From Thermoplasmata archaeon (GTDB lineage: Archaea; Thermoplasmatota; Thermoplasmata; Lutacidiplasmatales; UBA184): a DNA stretch of 64,000 nt. Shown piece by piece: positions 399 to 13,417 of the stretch. A program made the translations under genes and the position numbers. The DNA lies in the NCBI GenBank assembly GCA_021819135.1, contig JAKASE010000001.1, forward strand, positions 1-64,000. Direction: 5' to 3'. How positions within the stretch are numbered: position 1 is the stretch's first letter; the number at the start of each line of letters is the position of its first letter. The notes beneath the pieces were generated by a model. It ran no database searches. It worked only from the letters and a program-made list of their open reading frames with translations, and had not been told where the DNA came from.

Positions 399-860
399 TC
401 AGCCGTAGGCGGCCTGGATCAGGTGGTCCTTGAGCCGCTGGAGGCGGTCCTCCCAGAAGTGGAAGTGCCAGGAACGGGCCTCCTCCCAGGCGTCTCCCGA
501 TCCCCATCCCGCGTGCTCGAGCGTGACGTCGACCCCTTCGGGCGACTCCTGGAGACGGAAATAGACCTGGCTCGGGGGAGACCCCTCTCCGCGCATCAAC
601 GCAACATACTCCGGGGGACCCTGCCAGGTGAATCCGAGGTCGACATCGTTCGTGCGCTGGAGGATCTGGCCGGAGCTCGTGAAGGCTCGCGGTTCGGTGA
701 ACCGGAGCTCGTATTCCCCGCCCACGTCGGCCCCGACCCGGGCCTCCTCACAGAGCCAGCGACGGAGCGTCGCGGGCTCGACGAGCGCACCATAGATCAT
801 CGGTACCGGCAGGGGGATCGTCACCTGGATGAGGATCGGGTCGAGTCCTTCGTCGGCCAC
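399..860 (-). CDS. SRPBCC / AHSA1-like protein
   Basis: 153-residue single-domain protein of the SRPBCC (START-like, Aha1 C-terminal-like) superfamily. The hallmarks run through the whole chain: an N-terminal beta strand with I/V-rich residues, a segment on loading and 'LRRWLCEE' near residue 30, a central 'GGEYELRF' strand pair, and a C-terminal long helix with W-x-x-R-L-x-x-L around 135-148. Such proteins bind hydrophobic ligands or act as Hsp90-ATPase activator homologues; no ligand can be inferred here. The GTG at 860 is chosen because the domain begins directly after it and a box A-like CTATAG sits at 884-889, about 26 bases upstream, which fits a leaderless mRNA. An open frame continues further upstream but its sequence looks non-coding. 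Confidence 0.75.
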   Translation of the reverse strand: MADEGLDPILIQVTIPLPVPMIYGALVEPATLRRWLCEEARVGADVGGEYELRFTEPRAFTSSGQILQRTNDVDLGFTWQGPPEYVALMRGEGSPPSQVYFRLQESPEGVDVTLEHAGWGSGDAWEEARSWHFHFWEDRLQRLKDHLIQAAYG

Positions 861-3940: not shown

Positions 3941-4921
3941 TCAGACGCTTTCGGGAGGGTGGGTCTCCTCCGGACCCGGGGGGGCCGCGTGCGAACGGGT
4001 CGCCTCCCGATAGGCCTTCCAGAGGCTATTACCGCCGATCACCCCGACCACGAGGACGATCAGCAGCGTGGCGATGCCGATCTGATCGAGGTTGGGGATC
4101 GAGGTACCGGTGGCGAGGTAATAGTCCTCGAGCCACGGGAGGGCTGCGACGACCGTTCCGACGGCCATGAACGCGACCCCACCCATGTAGAGCGTCCGGG
4201 CCGCCGTTCTCCGACCGATCGACTGGATCTGTCCGTTGGAGAGCTTCTTCAGCCGCGCCAGGCGGGCGAAGAGCATCCCGGTGAGGATCTGCATCACCAT
4301 CGTGCCGAGGCCAAAGACCGCACCGACGAGCGCGGCCCACCCGACGTTCGGCATCTGGGGCGCGAGGACGAAGATGAGAATGACCGCGAACCCCCCGACG
4401 CCCCAGCCGGCGACGAACCCATGGAGGACCGCCATCCGCAACGGGATCGGCTTCGTCCCTTCCACGGGGGCGTGCTCGGGACTGGCGGTGTAGGTATGGT
4501 GGGTGTGGTCCGTGAAGAACCGGCCGAGAAGGCGTTCCATCGCTCCGTCGAGCGGCAGATGGATGTCGGAGCCGCGCAGGAGGTACCAGCCGGCCACGAA
4601 CATCACGAACCCGACGGCGACGTAGATGTACCCATCGAGGTTGTACGCCTCGTAGACGGCCGCGAGGCCCAGGAATCCGAGGGCGGTCAGGATCGCCCGC
4701 TGGACGGCGAACCCGGTCGAGAAGACGAGGCCGGCGCGGGCGCCCCCACGAGTGCTGTAACTGCCGATCGAGTAGCTGAACGTGATCGGCCAGGTGTGCT
4801 CGTCCGGCGTCGCTCCGTGGAAGAGTCCGAGGAGGAACCCGATCGCGAGGATCACCGGGACCGTGAGGCCGGCCGCCGAGGCACCGTTGAACAGGGCGAA
4901 GATGGTATCGAAGATCGACAT
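3941..4921 (-). CDS. NicO/RcnA-like nickel/cobalt transport membrane protein
   Basis: 326-residue polytopic protein with about seven membrane helices (around 20-35, 64-92, 98-116, 163-188, 193-218, 242-263 and 280-300). The first helix ends in 'HGATPDEH' (residues 35-42), the His/Asp metal-filter motif of the NiCoT/NicO/UreH-like group. A second His cluster (HTHHT) lies in the loop near 141. Known relatives move Ni2+ or Co2+ across the cell membrane, inward or outward. It starts nine bases after a DtxR-type regulator on the same strand and shares its metal-responsive operator at 5398-5419, so uptake or efflux is likely metal-controlled. Direction of transport and exact metal remain open. Confidence 0.75.
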   Translation of the reverse strand: MSIFDTIFALFNGASAAGLTVPVILAIGFLLGLFHGATPDEHTWPITFSYSIGSYSTRGGARAGLVFSTGFAVQRAILTALGFLGLAAVYEAYNLDGYIYVAVGFVMFVAGWYLLRGSDIHLPLDGAMERLLGRFFTDHTHHTYTASPEHAPVEGTKPIPLRMAVLHGFVAGWGVGGFAVILIFVLAPQMPNVGWAALVGAVFGLGTMVMQILTGMLFARLARLKKLSNGQIQSIGRRTAARTLYMGGVAFMAVGTVVAALPWLEDYYLATGTSIPNLDQIGIATLLIVLVVGVIGGNSLWKAYREATRSHAAPPGPEETHPPESV

Positions 4922-4930
4922 CGTGGCCCC

Positions 4931-5362
4931 CTAACCCGCTCCCCGACGGCTCCGGCACGGTGCGATCGGGGCGCCGTGCGGGCACTCCTGCGGGTGGCCC
5001 TCGGCGGCGCAAAGCCGGTCGACGGTCTGGTGGGAGAGCGCGAGGTCCACCTCCAGCGCGGCGAGGTGCGTGTCCTTCGCGGAAAGACCGAGCTGCTGGA
5101 AGAGGCTCTCGGCGACACGGTGATGCCGCTGGTACTCGGCGAGGCAGGCCTGGCCGCGGGCCGTGAGGCGGCTCTTTCCACGGAATCGGCTGACGAGATG
5201 CAATGCTTCGAGCGCGGTGAGGTGCTCGAGCGCGGACGGCGCCCGCATCCGGAGCGCCCGGGCCACCTCGTTCAGCGATGCCCCTCGCTCGGGGGTCTCC
5301 CCGCGCTGCACCGCGATCAGGGTCTGAACCTGTCGCCGGCTCAGACGTTCCAGCAGTTCCAT
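4931..5362 (-). CDS. DtxR/MntR-family metal-dependent transcriptional regulator
   Basis: 143 residues. An N-terminal winged helix-turn-helix (roughly residues 8-60, 'LNEVARALRMRAPSALEHLTALEA') is followed by the DtxR dimerisation/metal region: 'YQRHHRVAESLFQQLGL' (about 78-94), then a Glu/Asp-rich helix and 'LSHQTVDRLCAAEGHPQECPHG' in two halves around 110-131 with Cys, His and Glu ligands. The protein stops at the end of that region, so it is a short form without the SH3-like third domain. The ATG at 5362 is used; a GTG at 5380 would add six residues. It is the first gene of a two-gene unit with the metal transporter. Two overlapping dyads directly upstream imply autoregulation. Confidence 0.78.
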   Translation of the reverse strand: MELLERLSRRQVQTLIAVQRGETPERGASLNEVARALRMRAPSALEHLTALEALHLVSRFRGKSRLTARGQACLAEYQRHHRVAESLFQQLGLSAKDTHLAALEVDLALSHQTVDRLCAAEGHPQECPHGAPIAPCRSRRGAG

Positions 5363-5397
5363 GCCAGCGCCAGCGCTCACAAGTACTTGAGCACAAC

Positions 5398-5507: not shown

Positions 5508-5981
5508 TCACTTATCGTCGCTTCGGCGACCACCCGCGGCGAGGAGGTCCGCTTCGAGGACCGGATCCTCCGCCGCCTCGGCGGGCAAGGAGAGACGGGC
5601 GGGTCGGGCGGCAGTGCGAATGCTCGCAAAGGTGGCGATCAGGCTCGCCACGTAGCAGAGGAAACCCCCGAGCAGGTAGCCTCCGCCGCTGTAGAAACTG
5701 AGCAGGGAGAGGGTCATGATCCCGACCCCGAGGACCCGATGTCGCTCCGGCGCGAAGTAGATCGCGGTGCTCAACACTTCCATCAGGACCGCCCCGATCA
5801 TCCCGGCGACTCCCACCACAGCGGCGGAGATGCTCAGCGTCCCTCCGAGGGTGGCGGCCGGGGGTGAGCTGAAGACGATGTCGTAGACTGACTGAACCAG
5901 GGTCAGGGCCACCCCGAGAGTGCCGATCGCCAGGGCCCCTTCCGTCCCACCGGCTCCCGCGCCACGCGAACCGTCAGCCAT
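5508..5981 (-). CDS. small membrane protein, four predicted helices
   Basis: 157-residue protein with four hydrophobic stretches near residues 16-36, 44-68, 84-95 and 97-118. A Gly-rich 'FYSGGGYLLGGFLCYV' turn links the last two. The C-terminal 35 residues are soluble and charged. The pattern resembles small DUF6114-like membrane proteins, but I would not assign a function. It lies between the metal-regulator operon and the left end of the integrated element, 95 bases outside the repeat. No co-directional partner is close. Confidence 0.6.
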   Translation of the reverse strand: MADGSRGAGAGGTEGALAIGTLGVALTLVQSVYDIVFSSPPAATLGGTLSISAAVVGVAGMIGAVLMEVLSTAIYFAPERHRVLGVGIMTLSLLSFYSGGGYLLGGFLCYVASLIATFASIRTAARPARLSLPAEAAEDPVLEADLLAAGGRRSDDK

Positions 5982-6076: not shown

Positions 6077-6091
6077 AATGGACTGGTCGGG
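6077..6091. repeat. left attachment repeat (15 bp)
   Basis: Identical to the tRNA-Ala 3'-end sequence at 13314-13328; identity stops one base further on both sides. It marks the tRNA-distal boundary of the integrated element. Confidence 0.85.
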
Positions 6092-6121
6092 GTCCCCTAA
6101 CTTGTGCGCGTTGGGTCGATG

Positions 6122-6126
6122 AAAAA
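6122..6126 (-). terminator. T-run behind the last element gene
   Basis: On the minus strand five T residues follow the stop codon of the zinc-ribbon gene by about 35 bases. Archaeal RNA polymerase commonly stops at such short T runs. It lies between the last gene and the left attachment repeat, where the element's long transcript should end. Only the T run supports this. Confidence 0.35.
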
Positions 6127-6160
6127 TCGAGACATGCGTCCCTCTACTCAGTTTCAATCA

Positions 6161-6682
6161 TTACCGATTCGTCGCGAGCAGCCGGTACGCTTTGTCCCGA
6201 TTCTCGGAAGAGATTTCGTCTCGGTCCACGCGGCGCGAGAGCTCCGGGACGAGCACCCACCTATCGACCTCGGCGCAGGACGGGTCCCGGAGCCACCGTA
6301 AGAGCTCGTCTTCGGTGAGCTGGCTCGGGGGTACGTCGAGAGGTCGCGACGAAGGCGCGGACCTGGCGGGCTCGGCCGGTCGCTCGGAGTCGTCCACGAG
6401 CCGCGCCGCCGCGTCCCACTCCGGGGTTCCGGCCGGAGGCCAATTCGCCGGGTCCCTAAGCAGCTCGACCGCTTCCCGGCGCGAGATCGTCTCCTCCTCC
6501 GGCTCGTCCGGGAACGGCTCTGCGACCGGAGAGTCCGGTACGATCGGGAGGGAAGGAACCGGAGAGTCGCGGCCCCGCGCGACCCTCTTCCGGTCGCGGT
6601 CGTATCTCTTCCGGCACCGACCGCACCGGAGCGCCTTCCCACGCCGCAGCGGACGCCCACAATCCTCGCACCGGCGGTTCAT
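6161..6682 (-). CDS. element protein with N-terminal zinc ribbon, 173 aa
   Basis: Starts at ATG 6682 because the Cys cluster begins at once: C-x2-C at residues 5-8 and C-x2-C near 18-21, followed by a basic stretch (RKRYDRDRKR). That layout is a treble-clef or ribbon zinc finger that could bind nucleic acid. The remaining 130 residues are acidic and proline-rich with a repeated 'LLRDPxxW'/'LRWLRDPS' pattern around 73-82 and 132-140. No enzyme motif is visible. It is the last gene of the element and the only one separated from its upstream neighbour by a gap (220 bases), so it may have its own promoter or leader. Function unknown. Confidence 0.6.
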   Translation of the reverse strand: MNRRCEDCGRPLRRGKALRCGRCRKRYDRDRKRVARGRDSPVPSLPIVPDSPVAEPFPDEPEEETISRREAVELLRDPANWPPAGTPEWDAAARLVDDSERPAEPARSAPSSRPLDVPPSQLTEDELLRWLRDPSCAEVDRWVLVPELSRRVDRDEISSENRDKAYRLLATNR

Positions 6683-6902
6683 AGAAACTCGCAGGACCCC
6701 CGGACAGAATGGATGTATGGTGTCGGCCTGTACGCCCCTGCCTGTTCGCAGTTCCGCGTCCTCGTCTGAGCTTCGCAACAACCCCGGACACCGTCCGGGC
6801 TTGCGTACTGGGGTCTCGAACCCGGAATCGTGCCCGAACTATTCCACTCTGTACGGTCTATGGGTCCAAGAGTCGGGACCTTTCGTGCGAGATTTGCTCC
6901 GT
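6683..6902 (-). other. 220-base non-coding gap with a hairpin
   Basis: The only gap in an otherwise gapless gene chain. It contains a perfect stem CCCGGAC-ACC-GTCCGGG at 6783-6799 and, on the minus strand, a GGGTTCGAGACCC motif at 6810-6822 that looks like a T-loop but is not backed by a cloverleaf. It could hold a leader, a small RNA or part of an origin. No open frame with protein character was seen. Confidence 0.45.
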
Positions 6903-7370
6903 TCATCGGCCCCCTAAGCCGGCGGCCTTCCGTGCGAGTGCGTCTGCGCTTGGGACCCCCGCCTGGCGCTCGCGGCCGTGGTACGATCGGGACCACCTCA
7001 GATCGAACGACCCGAGCTTCGCTCGCTCCTCCGCGATCTGCTCGAGCAGGACTCGGAGAGCCGGGTCGTGAGGCTTCCCCCGCGCGTTGACGATCTCGAC
7101 CAGGGAGGAGGAGTCCGTTCGGGCGCGGAGATCCCGGACCCCGTGACGCTGACGGGCCACCTTCATCCCTCGGAGGAGGGTCGCGGCCTCCGCGTGGGTC
7201 GGCGAGGGAAGGAACCCGAGAGCGACCGAGTACTTCCCGACGGGGCGCATCGTCGGATTGCGGAGGACAATCCCCCCGCCAGCCCGCCGGAGCTCGATCC
7301 CATCGACAACCTTACGGACGGTGGGATTGAGCGACGCGTCGGTCTCGAGGTGGTACAAGGTCGCGTTCAT
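6903..7370 (-). CDS. RNase H fold protein (RNase HI-like)
   Basis: 155 residues with the RNase HI order of acidic sites: an N-terminal strand 'LYHLETDAS' with Asp near residue 11, Glu in 'HAEAATLL' (near 60), and Asp in 'RTDSSSLV' (near 85). The C-terminal 'ADALARKA' helix near 143-150 resembles the usual closing motif. Such proteins cut RNA in RNA-DNA hybrids, which could serve primer removal for an element with its own primase; an inactive RNase H fold used for binding is also possible. Its ATG overlaps the stop of the serine recombinase (ATGA at 7370-7367). The usual fourth acidic residue is not clearly placed. Confidence 0.7.
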   Translation of the reverse strand: MNATLYHLETDASLNPTVRKVVDGIELRRAGGGIVLRNPTMRPVGKYSVALGFLPSPTHAEAATLLRGMKVARQRHGVRDLRARTDSSSLVEIVNARGKPHDPALRVLLEQIAEERAKLGSFDLRWSRSYHGRERQAGVPSADALARKAAGLGGR

Positions 7371-8149
7371 GCGTCCCCTGTCAGAAACGGACCTTTCCGA
7401 GCAGGGGTAGGTCTCCCCCCTTCCGGCACGGTCCTATCCGGAGGGGGGTTCTCAGTCGGAGCGGGGGGTGGGACTTTTGACCCACCGCCCGAAGACCCCT
7501 CCTTTCCGTCCACCGTTTCCGACACGGCTCGATACAGCCTCCGCACGGTCGCAGTCGGGACCCGGACGTGCTGCGCAATCTCCCGCCAGGACTTGTGCTC
7601 CGCGTCCCGGAGCTCGAGGATCCGGCGCAGCGTGTCCTTCGGGACCTCCCGGGGGGGGCGGCCGAGGCGCTTCCCCTCCGCCTTCGCCCTTCGGAGACCG
7701 GCGTGCGTCCGTTCCACGATCAGCTCCCGCTCGAAGGACGCGACCGACGCGAGCACGTCTCGGATGAGCTTCCCGACGGCGGTCGAGGTATCGAACCCCT
7801 GGCTCGTGCAGATCACCCGGACCCCGGCGGCGTCCGCGAGCTCGTAGAAGTCGAGAACTCCGCGCACGGAGCGGCCGAGCCGGTCGATCTTCGTTACGAC
7901 TACCGTATCGACCCTCCGCTCCCGTACGGCGAGCCGAAGGGCGTCGAAGGCGGGGCGGCTCGCTCGAAGGCCCGAGGCCCCGTCGTCGCGGAAGACGAGC
8001 TCGGAACGGACCGGCCAGCCCATGCGCTCGGAGTACGCGGTAGTGTCGCGGACCTGATTCTCGGTCGTCTGCTCGTACGTCGAGACGCGAGAGTAGTGGG
8101 CTACCCGAGGCGCGGCGTAGAGGGCCACCTTCGGCGCATCCGCACTCAT
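7367..8149 (-). CDS. serine recombinase (resolvase/invertase family)
   Basis: 260 residues from ATG 8149, which overlaps the preceding stop (ATGA). The catalytic domain shows 'HYSRVSTYEQ' with the nucleophile Ser at residue 23, the 'DDGASGLRASRPAF' region, 'VTKIDRLGRS' with its arginines near 95-104, and the long E helix 'ASVASFERELIVERTHAG'. A 'KRLGRPP' linker leads into a C-terminal helix-turn-helix (about 182-210, 'WREIAQHVRVPTATVRRLY'). The last 50 residues are Pro/Gly-rich. Size and layout are those of small resolvases, so it may resolve dimers or invert DNA. An open frame reaches upstream to 8737, but that part only shadows the two preceding genes. Confidence 0.88.
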   Translation of the reverse strand: MSADAPKVALYAAPRVAHYSRVSTYEQTTENQVRDTTAYSERMGWPVRSELVFRDDGASGLRASRPAFDALRLAVRERRVDTVVVTKIDRLGRSVRGVLDFYELADAAGVRVICTSQGFDTSTAVGKLIRDVLASVASFERELIVERTHAGLRRAKAEGKRLGRPPREVPKDTLRRILELRDAEHKSWREIAQHVRVPTATVRRLYRAVSETVDGKEGSSGGGSKVPPPAPTENPPPDRTVPEGGRPTPARKGPFLTGDA

Positions 8150-8589
8150 GACCGGCCCCCCTTCGACGGCGAGGAGGATGCGGGGGTCGTCTCGAAGACG
8201 ATCTCGGCCTCGGCGGGGCGGCTTGGTGTCGAATGGCCGCACATCGGGCACGGCCCCGGAGCGCAGCCGCACTCGTCGTCGCACCGACACGGAGCACAGA
8301 GCATGCAGTCGGGGAAGGCGACGCCCGGAGCGACCTTCGGGGAGGGCGGGGAGGATGATTCGGTCGGGGCCTCTGCGTCCAAGGCGCGGGCAGGGGTTTT
8401 GCGCGCGCCGTTCCCCGCCTCTTGGAGCCGAACCCACTCGGCCGCCCGGGTTCGGAGGGTGTTCGGATGGACGCCGAGCTCCCGCGCGATCTCGGCCCAG
8501 GTCCGGCCCGTACGATTGCGCTCGACCAGGGCCAGCTCGACCGCGCCCGGGGGGAACGTCCGGGGGCGACCTCCCCGTGGGTTCGTCAC
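8146..8589 (-). CDS. HTH protein with Cys-rich tail
   Basis: 147 residues starting at GTG 8589, whose GTGA overlaps the stop of the replication gene; a GGAGG stands seven bases before the start. Residues about 5-50 form a helix-turn-helix of the Hin/resolvase DNA-binding type ('GRTWAEIARELGVHPNTLRTRA'-like core around 27-47). The second half holds eight Cys in 'CMLCAPCRCDDECGC' and 'CPMCGH' (about 95-120), a probable multi-zinc cluster. The HTH closely resembles the C-terminal HTH of the next gene's serine recombinase, so it may bind the same sites or arose from it. A regulator or accessory factor is likely; the precise role is unknown. Confidence 0.62.
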   Translation of the reverse strand: MTNPRGGRPRTFPPGAVELALVERNRTGRTWAEIARELGVHPNTLRTRAAEWVRLQEAGNGARKTPARALDAEAPTESSSPPSPKVAPGVAFPDCMLCAPCRCDDECGCAPGPCPMCGHSTPSRPAEAEIVFETTPASSSPSKGGRS

Positions 8590-10730
8590 CGCTCGCCCTC
8601 CTTCCGCTCGGCCTGGTCGAAGGCGGCTCGGGCCCGGTCCGCTCGCGTCGAGCGACCTCCGAAGAGGTCCCCCGGGTCCGGGTCGGAGCCGGGACGCCCC
8701 GGCTCCCCCCTTGACTCACTTGGCTCACTTGGCTCACCTTTCACGTCAGGACGAGAAAGTGAGTCAGGTGAGTCAGGTGAGCCTAAAGGTGTGGAGTCGC
8801 CTCGAAGCGACCGGATGAACGAAGACGGCAGGACGTACACGACCCGTCTCTGAGGGGTGCGGAGCCATGCGTCCTTGACCCCGAGGTTCCGACGGGCGGA
8901 GGCAAGCGACTTGTCCGAAACAGGGCGCTCTCCCCGACCTTTCAGCTCGCGGTTGACACGGTCCTTGAGTGCCTTCTGCCGTACTCTGACCTCGGGCTCG
9001 GTCGAGTCGAGCTTCGATGCGACGGCTCCGGCCTCGGCCAAGATCGCGTCGCGGAGCTCCTCTACCAAGGAGCCCTCTGAATCGGTGAGAGCGACCTTTC
9101 GGAGCTCGCTTGCGGCCCGCAGCTCGGCCGTCAAATCGGCACCGGCAACCTCCGCGACAAGGACCGCTACCGCAGCGAGCTCAGAGTCCCGGTTCGCACC
9201 GAACCGACCCTCGGCGACGGCGGCTTTCACTTTCGAGCGGAAGTTGTCGGTCTCATACAGGGCCGCGACACGCTCCTGCGGCCAGGCCCGGGCAACTTCT
9301 CGGCCCCACACGGCGAGTCGTCGGGGGAGATCGCCGACCTGGGGGGCAAGGTTTCGGAGCACGTAGTCGAACCCGGACTCACCGTCCGGAGTCGCTGTCG
9401 GAATAGTGAACCCCCGACTCGTGAGCGCGTCGTCGAGCCCTCCCCGGTACGAGAGCACCTTCATCCCGTAGATCGGGACGCTCTCGGTCGTCTTCTTGGC
9501 CGGGTCCCACCGGACGTATGGCGCGGCGGTCACCCGGTATCCTTGACGAATAAGCGCGTCCCGTACCTCCATCAGATCGCGCCCTCGTTCCACGTCGGCC
9601 TCGTCGATACAGAGCGTCCGTGCGGGGTGCTCGGGGTCCCCCAAGACCCGCGCGAGGGCGGCCGGCGAGACATTCTCGAGGAGAAGACCACCAGTCAGGT
9701 GGGCCATTAGATCGAGGATGTTGGTCTTTCCCGAACCGAACCGACCCCCATAGAACAGGTAGAACACTCGAGGCAAGATCGGCGCAAGGTACGATTGAAG
9801 GACACCGAGCGCGGAGACAGCGTAGTGCCAGTCCTCGTCCATGAAGTAATGCCGCTTGAGGACGGAGACCACCTCACGGAAGAGTCCGGGGCCGTCTGTC
9901 CCGGGTTCGACCACCACTTCATGCTTCGGTTCGTACCGCCGGGTCACGTCGCCCGCAAGGGAGACGAGCTCGCTATCGGTGAGGGGCGGTGCGCACCGGC
10001 GTCCGTTGAAGTCGCGGAGGTCCGCCAAGATCGCTTCCGCGCCGACCCCCAGGTCGCGCAGCTTCCCCGCGCGGCTGAGGAGGGTCGCGTGCCGGCTCCC
10101 TTCGGGGACCGGCTCCGTATCGTCCCGCCGACCGGCGGCGACAGCCTTGGGACGGTGCTCCTTCCACGCTTGCCGGAGCCACGGCGCCGCCTGGTCGAGC
10201 GCGAGCCCAACGGCTTCGAACTCCGGTATCGGGCCATCGCGGACGACCCGATACTCGCCGGCACCGTCGAACTTGGTCGGAGGTACGACGAGCAGCCCGT
10301 CAAGCAGCACGTCAACGAACCCGCCGACGCCGGTGGCTCGCCGCGCGACCGTCTCCGGTGGCTGGGTCTTGTAGAGAAAGAGGTCGTGCGTGCCTCCGCT
10401 CTTGGTCGAATGGCGATACCCGGACGCATAGCCGGTCGGTGGCTCCGGCATACCCTCCTTGCGGTTCTTGAGGTCGGTATCTACCGCTCCGAGGAACCGC
10501 CCGTCGGCGGTCGGGCCGAGTACGATCGCCAGCTGGGCGCTCGGATTCGCGGCCCAGAACTCGCGGACTTCGACCTTGGTGCGGAGCGGCCCGCCCTCTT
10601 TCCACCGTACGAGAGGGCGGGGACCGTTTGAGAGGGTCAGCGCAAGCGGGACAACCGGGACCCAGCGCACCCACCAAACGGCCGCCTCTGACGGCGATCC
10701 GAACGGCTGAGGGGCGGGACTCTCGCTCAT
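8586..10730 (-). CDS. replication protein: primase/polymerase domain plus helicase-type ATPase
   Basis: 714 residues. The N-terminal ~270 residues fit the bifunctional primase/polymerase (prim-pol) fold of plasmids and phages: a 'VPLALTLSNGPRPLVRWKEG' opening, an acidic 'GAVDTDLKNR' site near 90-100, and 'STKSGGTHDLFLY'-like strands with the conserved H. A primase C-terminal-like helical part follows (about 205-265). An ATPase then carries Walker A 'GGRFGSGKTN' near residue 327 and Walker B 'LCIDEAD' near 372, as in superfamily 3/DnaB-like plasmid helicases. The C-terminus is hydrophilic with SPD and SEP repeats encoded by iteron-like DNA at 8713-8783. ATG 10730 overlaps the previous stop and has GGGAGG seven bases upstream. 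This should prime and unwind the element's DNA. Confidence 0.83.
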   Translation of the reverse strand: MSESPAPQPFGSPSEAAVWWVRWVPVVPLALTLSNGPRPLVRWKEGGPLRTKVEVREFWAANPSAQLAIVLGPTADGRFLGAVDTDLKNRKEGMPEPPTGYASGYRHSTKSGGTHDLFLYKTQPPETVARRATGVGGFVDVLLDGLLVVPPTKFDGAGEYRVVRDGPIPEFEAVGLALDQAAPWLRQAWKEHRPKAVAAGRRDDTEPVPEGSRHATLLSRAGKLRDLGVGAEAILADLRDFNGRRCAPPLTDSELVSLAGDVTRRYEPKHEVVVEPGTDGPGLFREVVSVLKRHYFMDEDWHYAVSALGVLQSYLAPILPRVFYLFYGGRFGSGKTNILDLMAHLTGGLLLENVSPAALARVLGDPEHPARTLCIDEADVERGRDLMEVRDALIRQGYRVTAAPYVRWDPAKKTTESVPIYGMKVLSYRGGLDDALTSRGFTIPTATPDGESGFDYVLRNLAPQVGDLPRRLAVWGREVARAWPQERVAALYETDNFRSKVKAAVAEGRFGANRDSELAAVAVLVAEVAGADLTAELRAASELRKVALTDSEGSLVEELRDAILAEAGAVASKLDSTEPEVRVRQKALKDRVNRELKGRGERPVSDKSLASARRNLGVKDAWLRTPQRRVVYVLPSSFIRSLRGDSTPLGSPDSPDSLSRPDVKGEPSEPSESRGEPGRPGSDPDPGDLFGGRSTRADRARAAFDQAERKEGER
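8713..8783. repeat. iteron-like 9-bp repeats in inverted triplets
   Basis: Three tandem 9-mers of consensus GRCTCACYT run at 8713-8721, 8722-8730 and 8731-8739. After a 17-base centre, three copies in the opposite orientation follow at 8757-8765, 8766-8774 and 8775-8783. The array lies inside the 3' end of the replication gene, where it encodes SPD/SEP tripeptide repeats. Such spacing suits a protein-binding site or an origin, but tripeptide coding alone could explain the periodicity. Confidence 0.6.
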
Positions 10731-10918
10731 GGCGCGTCCTCCCTCGCCGGGCATGGCGACCGCAGCTCGGCCGAGATCGCAAGGCGACGGACCCTGCGAC
10801 CGCATTTTTCACAGACGAGAAATCCCGGGATCTCCGAAGCCCACCGATGCTCCGCCGGGAAGACACCGTAGGTACCGAGCGTCGCGTTGAGCGGTCGAGA
10901 AGACGCCTTCGCGGTCAC
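10727..10918 (-). CDS. small element protein with one CxxC, 63 aa
   Basis: Starts at GTG 10918 in a GTGA overlap with the stop of the zinc-finger gene, with GGAGG just upstream. It ends in an ATGA overlap with the replication gene. Residues 34-42 read 'LVCEKCGRR', a single C-x2-C knuckle, and a lone Cys sits near 56. This may be half of a zinc ribbon or a dimeric zinc hook. Position directly before the replication gene suggests an accessory or copy-control role, which is inference from location only. Confidence 0.6.
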   Translation of the reverse strand: MTAKASSRPLNATLGTYGVFPAEHRWASEIPGFLVCEKCGRRVRRLAISAELRSPCPAREDAP

Positions 10919-11235
10919 GGCTCCTCCGGTGGCCCGGCGAGGTAGCGGAGCCGTCGGGTCACGGCTCTTCGGAGTGCGTCTCCTCTGAGGTTGGGGTCGT
11001 CGAGGGGGTCGGACTCAAGTCCCAGATCGCCGGGGAGAGAGGACCCGCCGAGGTCGGTGCCGGCCGGCAACCTGAGTCCGGGGCACCTTCCGTAACGCCG
11101 GTGACTCCGTAGACCTCCCCGCGTTCCGAAGGTCGCGCCGCAGCCGGCGCAGCGGAGCCAGTCGGCGCGCGGGAGCAGCGTGGACCGTTCAAGCGGCCGC
11201 GCGCCCTTACTCCGCTCGAGGCTGTCCGCGACCAC
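10915..11235 (-). CDS. C2HC zinc-finger element protein, 106 aa
   Basis: Contains 'CAGCGATFGTRGGLRSHRR' from about residue 31 followed by Cys after RYGR: a C-x2-C-x12-H-x5-C finger resembling classical C2H2 fingers with Cys in the last position. Such fingers bind DNA and are common in archaeal viruses and plasmids. GTG 11235 is chosen because a perfect AGGAGG sits at 11242-11247, seven bases upstream; an open frame to a TTG at 11316 exists but lacks such a site. It overlaps the end of the preceding 46-residue gene by 29 bases and is coupled by GTGA to the next gene. Likely a regulator. Confidence 0.65.
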   Translation of the reverse strand: MVADSLERSKGARPLERSTLLPRADWLRCAGCGATFGTRGGLRSHRRYGRCPGLRLPAGTDLGGSSLPGDLGLESDPLDDPNLRGDALRRAVTRRLRYLAGPPEEP

Positions 11236-11347
11236 CGGCGGCCTCCTGGGTCGCGGCGATATCCGTCGCGCGCGGCCCTCCCTGTTCGAGTCGGGTGAGG
11301 ATTGAGCGACCCTCAATTCGGCAGGCGGGCGAGCTCTGTCGATTCAT
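11207..11347 (-). CDS. very small element protein, 46 aa
   Basis: ATG 11347 overlaps the stop of the upstream small gene (ATGA) and has GGAGG about eight bases upstream, matching the pattern of all neighbours. The product is 46 residues, polar, with 'RIEGRSILTRLEQGG' in the middle and no motif. Support comes from the start context alone, so it might merely be a coupling peptide that brings ribosomes to the zinc-finger gene. Confidence 0.42.
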   Translation of the reverse strand: MNRQSSPACRIEGRSILTRLEQGGPRATDIAATQEAAGGRGQPRAE

Positions 11348-11544
11348 GCGGGCGCCCTCCGAGAGAGACGAATCAGCGTGGGGACGCGCTGCGCGACGGC
11401 GATCTTGGTATCCGTCGCCGAGGTCGCTTCGACCTCGAGACGGAAGGGGTGGCTCTCCGGCCAGCTCCGACGGGCGAGCTCTTTGAGCTGCGCGGATGCG
11501 GTCGGCTCTACGGTCGGCGGCGCGGTCGCTTCCTGAGAAGTCAT
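11344..11544 (-). CDS. small element protein, 66 aa
   Basis: Two ATGs compete: 11550 (in an ATGA overlap) and 11544. The GGAGG at 11551-11555 is six bases from 11544 but abuts 11550, so 11544 is preferred. The 66-residue product has a Thr/Pro/Ala-rich start, a central 'LKELARRSWPESHPFRLEVEA' amphipathic region (split here at about residues 19-39), and a basic tail. No family recognised. It is co-translated with the 104-residue gene before it. Confidence 0.5.
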   Translation of the reverse strand: MTSQEATAPPTVEPTASAQLKELARRSWPESHPFRLEVEATSATDTKIAVAQRVPTLIRLSRRAPA

Positions 11545-11546
11545 TT

Positions 11547-11861
11547 TCATCCTCCCGCCCCAAGAATCAGGGGCGAGAGGGAATGGACGAAGAGGTTGGC
11601 TTCGAGGTAAAGGTCAATCAACGGGGGCGGCGGGCCCGCCGCCCCCCCGAATTTGTAAGACCACTTCTTGGTCGGAATCGAACCGAAGGCGGTCGTGAAC
11701 GTATCGCCCCGAACAGCGGCCCGTTCGAGATTGAGGAATCCAAATGCGACCAAGGCGCCCTTGATAACGCCCGAGACGAAGCTTCCGAGGTCCCGGAGTG
11801 CGGTCAACCCCTCGGCCGAAAACCCGGAGAAGTCGAAGAGGGGAGGCGGCTGATTCGTCAT
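11547..11861 (-). CDS. element protein of unknown function, 104 aa
   Basis: ATG 11861 overlaps the integrase stop (ATGA) and is preceded by GGAGG seven bases upstream. The protein is fairly hydrophobic: residues about 24-44 (LGSFVSGVIKGALVAFGFLN) could be a membrane or amphipathic helix, and the C-terminus is 'LEANLFVHSLSPLILGAGG'. A Gly/Pro-rich loop lies near 74-80. No motif is recognised. A membrane-associated or structural role would be possible, but nothing proves it. Confidence 0.55.
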   Translation of the reverse strand: MTNQPPPLFDFSGFSAEGLTALRDLGSFVSGVIKGALVAFGFLNLERAAVRGDTFTTAFGSIPTKKWSYKFGGAAGPPPPLIDLYLEANLFVHSLSPLILGAGG

Positions 11862-13255
11862 GCGCGCACCTCCGCTGGCGCCTCAAGAAGGAGCTGGTCC
11901 CGGTTCGGCCCGACCGTCTCTTTGACGCGCCACCCGAGATCGAGCAGCGCGTTCGCCTCACCGAGAGGGACGATTCGCTGTTTCGGCTGGCGCACACTCG
12001 ATGGCCTTGGCACGCCGGCCGGAACGGGGGGTGCGTACTTGAGTGCCACGGCCCCGAGTTCCTCCGGGGTCATGGACCCGACGGACAACGAAGCGATCAC
12101 GTCCTTCGGGACGCCGACCATCGCAAGGATCAGACGGGCTGCCTCCTCCGTCTTCGGCCCGGTGTCCTGGCGTGCGAACGTCTCGAGGTACGGGACGGCC
12201 TTCTCGTACTCCGAGCGGAGCTCGTCCACGAGACCGTCGCCGAGCCTCTTCGAGAGGTTGTACCGGCCCGAAACGCCGAGGTTGTGACCCAGCATGGCCT
12301 CGCGGGCCTCGCGGTCCACGCGGGCGGTCCAAAGCTGGGTTGAGCAGTACGATCGAAGCACGTACGGACGCCACCGCACGCCGTCGGGCCTCACCTTCGA
12401 TATCGCCTTGCGGAGCTCGAAGACGATAGTCTTGGTCGTCGTGTGCCCCCACACGGCGGGGCCGGAGACCTTGTGGACATTTCGAGCACCGAGCGGCGAC
12501 AGGGCGACCAGGGGAGAGGCGGGCCTGAGCTTGTCCCCTTGAATGGTCCGCTCCCTTAGGTAAGTGAGAATCGCCTCCGCGAGCTCGAGAGTCCCGAAGG
12601 TCACGTATGCCCGCCGGGTCTTCGAGAGCGTCGCCGGTACGTTGATTCGGATGGACCGCTGCCCGGGCTTAAGGTCGAATTGTGGGGCACTCTTGCCGGA
12701 CAGCCTGAGCTCAGGGAGATCGCCGAGCACGAGGCCGGCCTGGCCCCGGTAGTCGCCAAGGACACCGGGCCGGAGGCCGGCGTGCGCCATCGCAAGCGCG
12801 ATGACTCGTCCGCGCACAGGGAGGGCCGCCAAGATCGCGCGGAGTTCGTCCGGCGTCGGTACCTGTTCGGCCTTCAAGGTCTCCCCCGCGATGGGACTGA
12901 GCTTAGGGAATTGATGGAACTCGACCCCGCTGTGCTTGAGCCATCCCGAGACGGCAGAGAGCGTTTTCGAGATGTAGGAGTCCTGACGCCCGGCTGCCTT
13001 CATCCGGCCAGCGTACTCCACAGAAAAATCGCGGAGGCGGTTCGGTTCCTCGCGGGCGAGGCGCACGATCTCCGCCGGCGTTACCTTGGACCTATCGATC
13101 TTCCCAAACCACTCGGCGACGGAGGAGAGCTTGCGCGCCTCGAGGTCGGCGGCTTGCTCGGAGCGAAGCTTGCGCACGTTGTACCAGGCGCGCACCCCCG
13201 GCTCCTCGAGCACGGTTGCGAGACGCCCTCGGACTCGCTTACTTGTGCGCGCCAT
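11858..13255 (-). CDS. int: tyrosine integrase of the element
   Basis: 465 residues. The N-terminal ~125 residues look like a SAM-like core-binding domain. The catalytic domain shows Arg162 in 'HAGLRPGVLGDY', Arg301 in 'RPYVLRSYCSTQL', His324 in 'MLGHNLGVSGRYNLS' and the nucleophile Tyr332. At the second-site histidine (R-x-x-H-x-x-R) there is Tyr298, as in several archaeal integrases. About 130 residues follow the catalytic Tyr, longer than usual, and could contain an extra DNA-binding part. The gene faces away from tRNA-Ala with its start 61 bases from the attachment site and is not split by it. A strong box A at 13281-13288 places the transcript start at the ATG. Confidence 0.88.
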   Translation of the reverse strand: MARTSKRVRGRLATVLEEPGVRAWYNVRKLRSEQAADLEARKLSSVAEWFGKIDRSKVTPAEIVRLAREEPNRLRDFSVEYAGRMKAAGRQDSYISKTLSAVSGWLKHSGVEFHQFPKLSPIAGETLKAEQVPTPDELRAILAALPVRGRVIALAMAHAGLRPGVLGDYRGQAGLVLGDLPELRLSGKSAPQFDLKPGQRSIRINVPATLSKTRRAYVTFGTLELAEAILTYLRERTIQGDKLRPASPLVALSPLGARNVHKVSGPAVWGHTTTKTIVFELRKAISKVRPDGVRWRPYVLRSYCSTQLWTARVDREAREAMLGHNLGVSGRYNLSKRLGDGLVDELRSEYEKAVPYLETFARQDTGPKTEEAARLILAMVGVPKDVIASLSVGSMTPEELGAVALKYAPPVPAGVPRPSSVRQPKQRIVPLGEANALLDLGWRVKETVGPNRDQLLLEAPAEVRA

Positions 13256-13262
13256 TCCGACA

Positions 13263-13279
13263 ATCCCTAATCAGGGGAT
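13263..13279. promoter_or_regulatory. dyad operator before the integrase
   Basis: ATCCC-N7-GGGAT forms a perfect five-base dyad between the box A (13281-13288) and the integrase ATG at 13255. A protein bound here would block the single promoter that appears to serve the whole element. The arms are short, so chance cannot be excluded. Confidence 0.45.
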
Positions 13280-13280
13280 G

Positions 13281-13288
13281 TATTTAAG
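13281..13288 (-). promoter_or_regulatory. box A promoter of the element operon
   Basis: CTTAAATA on the minus strand lies 26-33 bases before the integrase ATG at 13255, the expected archaeal TATA distance for a leaderless mRNA. No other good box A is seen before the downstream element genes, so it may drive the complete chain. Confidence 0.65.
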
Positions 13289-13313
13289 CGATTACAGGCT
13301 ACCCACAAAAGAG

Positions 13314-13328
13314 AATGGACTGGTCGGG
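13314..13328. repeat. right attachment repeat (15 bp) within tRNA-Ala
   Basis: AATGGACTGGTCGGG, identical to 6077-6091. It covers the 3' acceptor strand and part of the T stem of tRNA-Ala, so the tRNA gene stays intact after integration. Confidence 0.85.
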
Positions 13329-13389
13329 ATTCGAACCCGAGGCCTCCGGTTTGCAAAACCGGCGATCTTCCGGACTGATCTACCAGCCC
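13316..13389 (-). tRNA. tRNA-Ala (anticodon TGC)
   Basis: 74 bases fold into a full cloverleaf. The acceptor GGGCTGG pairs with CCAGTCC and includes the G3-U70 wobble that is the universal alanine identity element, and the discriminator is A. The anticodon stem CCGGT/ACCGG encloses loop TTTGCAA, giving TGC. The T arm is TCGGG-TTCGAAT-CCCGA. CCA is not encoded and there is no intron. Its 3' end is the integration site of the neighbouring element. Confidence 0.96.
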
Positions 13390-13417
13390 ACACTCCCGCT
13401 CGGTACCCTGCTCGGAC

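Follow-up and report, generated by a model that had tools for sequence, protein, structure and literature searches.

The first 64,000 nucleotides of contig JAKASE010000001.1 from a Thermoplasmata archaeon (the window, i.e., the whole stretch that was analyzed) carry at tRNA-Ala what is probably a complete, 7.25-kb integrative plasmid-like element of the cryptic integrated element (CIE) type. The element is integrated at a tRNA gene, its codon use is foreign to the host, the catalytic residues of its enzymes are intact, and the gene for its replication protein (Rep) combines a conserved hairpin architecture with a C-terminal tail that recurs in related Reps; the element would be expected to excise and to replicate. 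What is new is an inverted array of 9-bp iterons within rep, an architecture that recurs with differing iterons and is then followed by the shared tail. No described family of plasmids or integrated elements of this kind was found for uncultured Thermoplasmata of acid sites.

Integration at tRNA-Ala

The element is bounded by the 15-bp sequence AATGGACTGGTCGGG, present as two exact copies in the window. The copy at 13314-13328 overlaps the 3′ end (positions −14 to +1) of an intact tRNA-Ala(TGC) gene on the minus strand (13315-13390; ARAGORN; Rfam RF00005, E = 1.9e-13), which is the integration target, and the copy at 6077-6091 forms the distal end of the element, which measures 7.25 kb with both attachment (att) copies included. 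By estimate, 128 kb of strand would contain another exact copy of the 15-mer with a probability of about 1e-4, before demanding that it be placed at a tRNA 3′ end. The third match to AATGGACTGGTCGGG in the window has two mismatches, rendering a search with three mismatches uninformative. The distal boundary is further supported by codon use, which becomes foreign between the gene at 5508-5912 and zr206, the nearest gene of the element. The 49 host genes all outscore the ten element genes in codon use, and G+C content at third codon positions (GC3) is 0.73-0.84 in the element genes, versus 0.909 ± 0.035 in host genes. Overall G+C does not differ between element and host and thus fails to mark the element, whereas codon use does.

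Comparison with relatives, which were found in metagenome-assembled genomes of Thermoplasmata from acid sites (as read from the isolate names), supports the same conclusion. Eight congeneric genomes keep the LLM-Nudix-tRNA-Ala(TGC) block with no integrase there, and several of these keep an SRPBCC-like anchor gene, the homolog of window 399-860, farther downstream, indicating that the flanks are orthologous. In a ninth species (isolate AcS13-54, locus L127) a related element occupies the same tRNA-Ala, with identities to the window element of 76% for the integrase, 56% for orf68 and 45% for the helicase. This relative also carries an N6 DNA methylase and a serine recombinase, and its cargo differs from that of the window element; its called helicase gene has no primase part, and the contig ends in the element, as is the case for most of the related elements. 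The original prediction of a self-replicating element integrated at a tRNA, flanked by a 15-bp exact direct repeat with one copy in tRNA-Ala, is thus supported by the repeat itself, the element-free site in eight relatives, a codon use that fits the repeat boundaries, and the L127 element, which occupies this tRNA in a different species. The segment is not part of the core genome, and no copy lacking the repeat turned up at another location.

The enzyme to which integration would be attributed is a tyrosine recombinase of 465 amino acids encoded by int (11858-13255, minus strand). It falls below the Pfam Phage_integrase cut-off and is clear from an alignment of 37 homologs, in which the active site is complete (R162, K212, Y298xxR301, H324 and Y332) and reads as the classical R-K-[H/K/Y]xxR-H-Y arrangement. 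Its reading frame is whole and was not split by integration, and a distant profile match links it to Pyrococcus abyssi XerA (4a8e, E = 4.7e-11). In its catalytic residues, its likeness to XerA and its intactness after integration, int resembles the non-suicidal archaeal tyrosine integrases of the XerA/pNOB8 group, from which it differs by its sub-threshold Pfam score, a YxxR in place of the HxxR box, and the lack of a match in the plasmid collection. Of 59 unique homologs with enough upstream sequence, 35 follow a tRNA gene that is read in the same direction, at a distance of 30-108 bp from its 3′ end, and these 35 span 18 tRNA types; four more face a tRNA in the opposite orientation. This placement marks int as a member of a tRNA-targeting family, whose integrases also have in common a C-terminal module (consensus GWEFVxPLxG...VLRxP) beyond the catalytic domain, corresponding to about residues 425-455 of int. 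At loci L029/L030 (G022:C20), two or three integrases of this family lie within 21 kb, one of them at tRNA-Lys, which suggests stacked or decaying elements. A TATA-like box (CTTAAATAC, 13280-13288, minus strand) precedes the int ATG by about 29 bp and there is no Shine-Dalgarno sequence upstream, indicating that int is probably a leaderless first gene. In L127, an A/T-rich TATA-like motif is present at the corresponding place before the integrase gene.

Rep, its in-gene iteron hairpin and its tail

The 714-amino-acid Rep (8586-10730, minus strand) was analyzed by Pfam, motif positions, an AlphaFold model and Foldseek. Its parts are arranged as an archaeo-eukaryotic primase (AEP) primase-polymerase, PriCT-1, an SF3-like AAA+ helicase, a probable winged helix, a linker and the tail. 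Pfam recognizes Prim-Pol and PriCT_1, the AEP residues D84xD86, H115 and D140 are present, and Walker A and Walker B start at residues 328 and 372, respectively. The AlphaFold model has low overall confidence (pLDDT 56), rising to about 80 in the helicase, and Foldseek matches the helicase model to SCCmec Cch, papillomavirus E1 and the NrS-1 primase-helicase, making it likely that this part is an SF3-like AAA+ helicase. As Rep has no sequence match in the PDB, this assignment follows from fold comparison, and the probable winged helix is read from the secondary structure of the model only.

At the 3′ end of rep, within the coding sequence and before the stop codon at 8586, lies an inverted array of 9-bp iterons (minus strand; arms at 8715-8740 and 8756-8781), supported by its inverted-repeat score and exact copies. 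On the rep sense strand the array runs GGCTCACCT GACTCACCT GACTCACTT, then a spacer with the core palindrome CGTCCTGACG (8744-8753; pattern CGTC-N2-GACG), followed by AGGTGAGCC AAGTGAGCC AAGTGAGTC, and contains five exact copies of GTGAGYCAR. Weak matches to miRNA families at 8711-8786 were judged not to be RNAs, and pointed to this hairpin. Other Reps have the same architecture, likewise placed after the helicase part and ahead of the C-terminal tail, with iterons that are specific to the element (CCCCCTTGC in L132, CTAACCCGC in L025 and GGCCCATCC in L048). In five of nine reps the inverted-repeat score (window 16, L132 20, L025 17, L031 16, L032 23) exceeds all 393 control segments, the maximum of which is 15, and codon shuffles never attained the observed score in any of these five. 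The window is the discovery case, and L132, L025, L031 and L032 thus provide the independent evidence for the hairpin. DNA folding agrees for most arrays (z = −2.8 for the window and −4.9 for L132). The palindrome CGTC-N2/3-GACG occurs 20 times in the 64 kb, matching chance expectation; its presence within the spacer in five of the nine Reps, in two different reading frames, argues for constraint at the level of DNA.

In plasmid pRN1, a stem-loop of about 100 nucleotides located just 3′ of a rep gene encoding AEP, SF3 and winged-helix parts is needed for replication, and across the pRN1 family the structure of this stem-loop is conserved and its sequence is not (PMC4234260). Because the pRN1 origin lies just 3′ of rep, we consider it, by analogy, somewhat more likely than not that the iteron hairpin inside rep is a replication origin. 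The iterons differ between elements that reside in the same genome (the window element and that on C19 in G000; the elements on C15 and C1 in G022), which fits a role in compatibility between co-resident elements.

Sites of other kinds have to be weighed against this origin reading. Centromere-like sites and operators also contain short inverted or direct repeats, and a serine recombinase gene follows rep, directly or one to two genes apart, in the window, L127, L132, L025 and L047, so the hairpin could instead serve in partition, act as an operator or be the site at which that recombinase works. We regard this as a real possibility that is not the favored one: L031 has a strong hairpin with no serine recombinase seen beside rep, and the hairpin recurs together with Rep, while Reps of the pRN1 type use a stem-loop origin. 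Resolvase sites, moreover, use longer half-sites. Read as protein, the array gives tripeptide repeats (PDS-PDS and EPS-EPS, for example) and might be viewed as a mere low-complexity, proline-rich linker made from repeated codons. Repeats in a protein do not predict inverted symmetry, codon shuffles failed to reproduce it in five reps, and the core palindrome is kept in two different reading frames, all of which makes such a linker very improbable.

Downstream of the array, the tail of Rep (DPGDLFGGRSTRADRAR, 8628-8678, minus strand) is common to seven other Reps, with the consensus DPxDLFGGxxTRADRAR and carriers in the window, L127, L132, L025, L032, L022, L047 and L048. Mismatch rates of 0.18, 0.23 and 0.59 at the three codon positions indicate that the tail is conserved as protein. 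It is present on Reps whose cores cannot be aligned to that of the window Rep: L047 has a D5-type helicase, and the Reps of L032 and L022 have little in common with the window Rep beyond the tail. Across the 300 genomes of the class that were searched, convincing copies were confined to the host genus, with three tail-bearing Reps in the window's own genome and two in G037. It may be guessed that the tail binds a host factor. Taken further, and only tentatively, these elements could represent a family of Thermoplasmata integrative plasmids, in which an element-specific iteron-hairpin origin within rep and a tail grafted onto several helicases are combined, the hairpin serving as a compatibility determinant and the tail as a peptide by which Rep docks to one replication factor of the host.

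Gene content and likeness to known systems

Ten open reading frames lie on the minus strand between the att copies, in the order int, orf104, orf68, znf133, orf63, rep, hth147, serine recombinase, RNase H and zr206. Eleven genes on one strand had been predicted, of which the shared strand holds and the count does not. Overlaps of 4 bp between stop and start codons couple most of these genes, several have a strong Shine-Dalgarno sequence, and none of the reading frames is broken. The predicted prim-pol, serine recombinase and RNase H fold all exceed Pfam cut-offs (Prim-Pol, PriCT_1, Resolvase and RVT_3), and the predicted tyrosine integrase is clear from the alignment described above. The small serine recombinase is of the resolvase/invertase type with a C-terminal helix-turn-helix (7367-8149; Resolvase, E = 6.1e-39), and its nucleophile S23 is present by motif check, as are D11-E61-D86-D143 in the RNase H-fold protein (6903-7370; RVT_3, 37 bits with a cut-off of 21.6). 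Between rep and the serine recombinase gene lies hth147 (8146-8589), a helix-turn-helix protein with a Cys-rich C-terminal part (HTH_Tnp_1, 28.2 bits). In L132 (3585-5606, 2565-3488) and L127 (12146-14649), an N6/N4 DNA methylase occupies this position.

On the other side of rep are orf63 (10727-10918), a small CxxC protein with a 4-bp overlap on each side, and znf133 (10915-11316), a C2H2-like zinc finger protein with weak Pfam matches that may start at a GTG near 11235 behind AGGAGG. Next come orf68 (11344-11550), a conserved small protein by tblastn that is a possible regulator or directionality factor, and the hydrophobic small protein orf104 (11547-11861), with a Shine-Dalgarno sequence and a 4-bp overlap with int; neither has a family match in scans of Pfam, PHROGs and NCBIfam. 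At the distal end, zr206 (6161-6781) is a zinc-ribbon protein with a CxxC...CxxC motif and weak zinc-ribbon matches, for which a start at the ATG at 6682 is more likely than at the TTG at 6781. The 120 bp between zr206 and the RNase H gene (6785-6902, minus strand) include a strong short hairpin at 6779-6803, perhaps a terminator. As a whole, this stretch folds no better than shuffles, and a tRNA-like or RNA gene at 6780-6905 was dropped (no Rfam match, fold z-score +0.36). A defense role was also set aside, as PADLOC returned only a weak serine recombinase match and nothing meaningful. Just outside the element, a membrane-transporter-like gene and a MarR-like neighbor (3941-5380) form a pair that, in two other species (L134, 1593-2975; L147, 5807-7168), again lies no more than 8.5 kb from an integrase.

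The original prediction spoke of an element of an unrecognized kind, which is too strong, since the element is close to the thaumarchaeal CIEs and its Rep is pRN1-like. The CIEs integrate at tRNA 3′ ends with repeats of mostly 8-26 bp (median 17), and carry an integrase and primpol-S3H replication genes and no capsid or conjugation genes (PMC6563490). The window element likewise combines an intact int and short direct repeats at a defined tRNA 3′-end target with a primpol-helicase, is absent from the orthologous site in eight congeners, and has no recognized structural or conjugation genes. It differs in its host phylum, in its size (7.25 kb versus a CIE median of 17 kb), and in having two recombinases and an RNase H. 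With the pRN1 family of the Sulfolobales (pRN1, pRN2, pSSVx and others) it shares a Rep with AEP primase, SF3-type helicase and winged helix, and a stem-loop toward the 3′ side of rep, of which the structure rather than the sequence is conserved. Unlike in pRN1, where it follows rep, the hairpin is inside rep (8715-8781) and built of 9-bp iterons, and the element is further set apart by the shared Rep tail and by a tyrosine integrase, serine recombinase and RNase H of its own. No Pfam CopG match was found for an equivalent of the ORF56 repressor upstream of rep in pRN-type plasmids; orf63 and znf133 are there instead. Given the position of the candidate origin and the missing CopG-like partner, the element is classed here as a cryptic integrative plasmid that would work like pRN1 while standing outside the pRN family. 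Rep had no match in plasmid and phage records at E 1e-5, in collections for which the presence of the pRN plasmids is not established; int had no match in the plasmid collection either. Staphylococcal SCCmec and SaPI islands provide a structural parallel only, with Cch as the best structural match of the Rep helicase and a chromosomal island that has its own helicase; the element differs by its fused primase, a tyrosine recombinase that acts on a tRNA, and an archaeal host.

Alternative explanations and a proposed life cycle

Several observations weigh against a complete, mobile element. No capsid, other virus structural or conjugation gene was recognized in Pfam, PHROGs and NCBIfam scans of all ten genes to account for transfer between cells. 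The left boundary has the repeat and the codon use as its sole markers, and the two genes just outside it (4931-5362 and 5508-5912) themselves score near the bottom of the host range in codon use. The exact empty-site sequence is not preserved in any relative, and a search of about 30 related tRNA-integrase loci yielded no att repeats clearly above controls, contigs often ending first. (A 17-nucleotide att candidate with one mismatch in L047 lies inside its own serine recombinase gene and is probably due to chance.) The Prim-Pol part of the Rep model is below 50 pLDDT, the call coming from Pfam and motifs, and the hairpin is borderline in L048 and not significant in L127, L047 and L022.

A decayed or immobile remnant, once mobile and now fixed in the chromosome, would fit the presence of the element at this tRNA-Ala site in one genome only, a G+C near that of the host, the small size and the lack of transfer genes. 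The unbroken reading frames, the intact catalytic residues of integrase, primase, helicase, recombinase and RNase H, and the continued identity of both att copies make this unlikely. Similarly, an integrase and a replication module without capsid genes is the layout of a satellite, and the Rep helicase model matches Cch of SCCmec; a virus satellite or small provirus that depends on a helper virus for packaging is nonetheless improbable, as there was no PHROG match for structural, packaging or capsid-interference functions and none in phage records or in IMG/VR, which was searched with the integrase, Rep and an alignment.

The preferred explanation is a complete integrative plasmid-like element, whose life cycle might proceed as follows. 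The tyrosine integrase would act on a circular form and on the tRNA-Ala(TGC) 3′ end, joining the two by recombination; identity over the 15-bp att sequence would restore the tRNA, and as int stays whole, the same enzyme would be available for excision. In the circle, Rep would assemble on the iteron hairpin within its own gene, unwind the DNA and prime synthesis, after which it would recruit the host replisome. The serine recombinase would rather likely resolve multimers, and the RNase H might, with less assurance, remove primers or R-loops.

Should the in-gene hairpin indeed be the origin, this would explain how origin and initiator stay linked in an element of 7 kb, and it would provide testable compatibility rules for co-resident elements as well as a replicon for building vectors in the host lineage, for which we know of no genetic tools. 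If the hairpin is a compatibility determinant, several such elements could share one cell, and the shared tail may point to a single host partner of archaeal plasmid replication.

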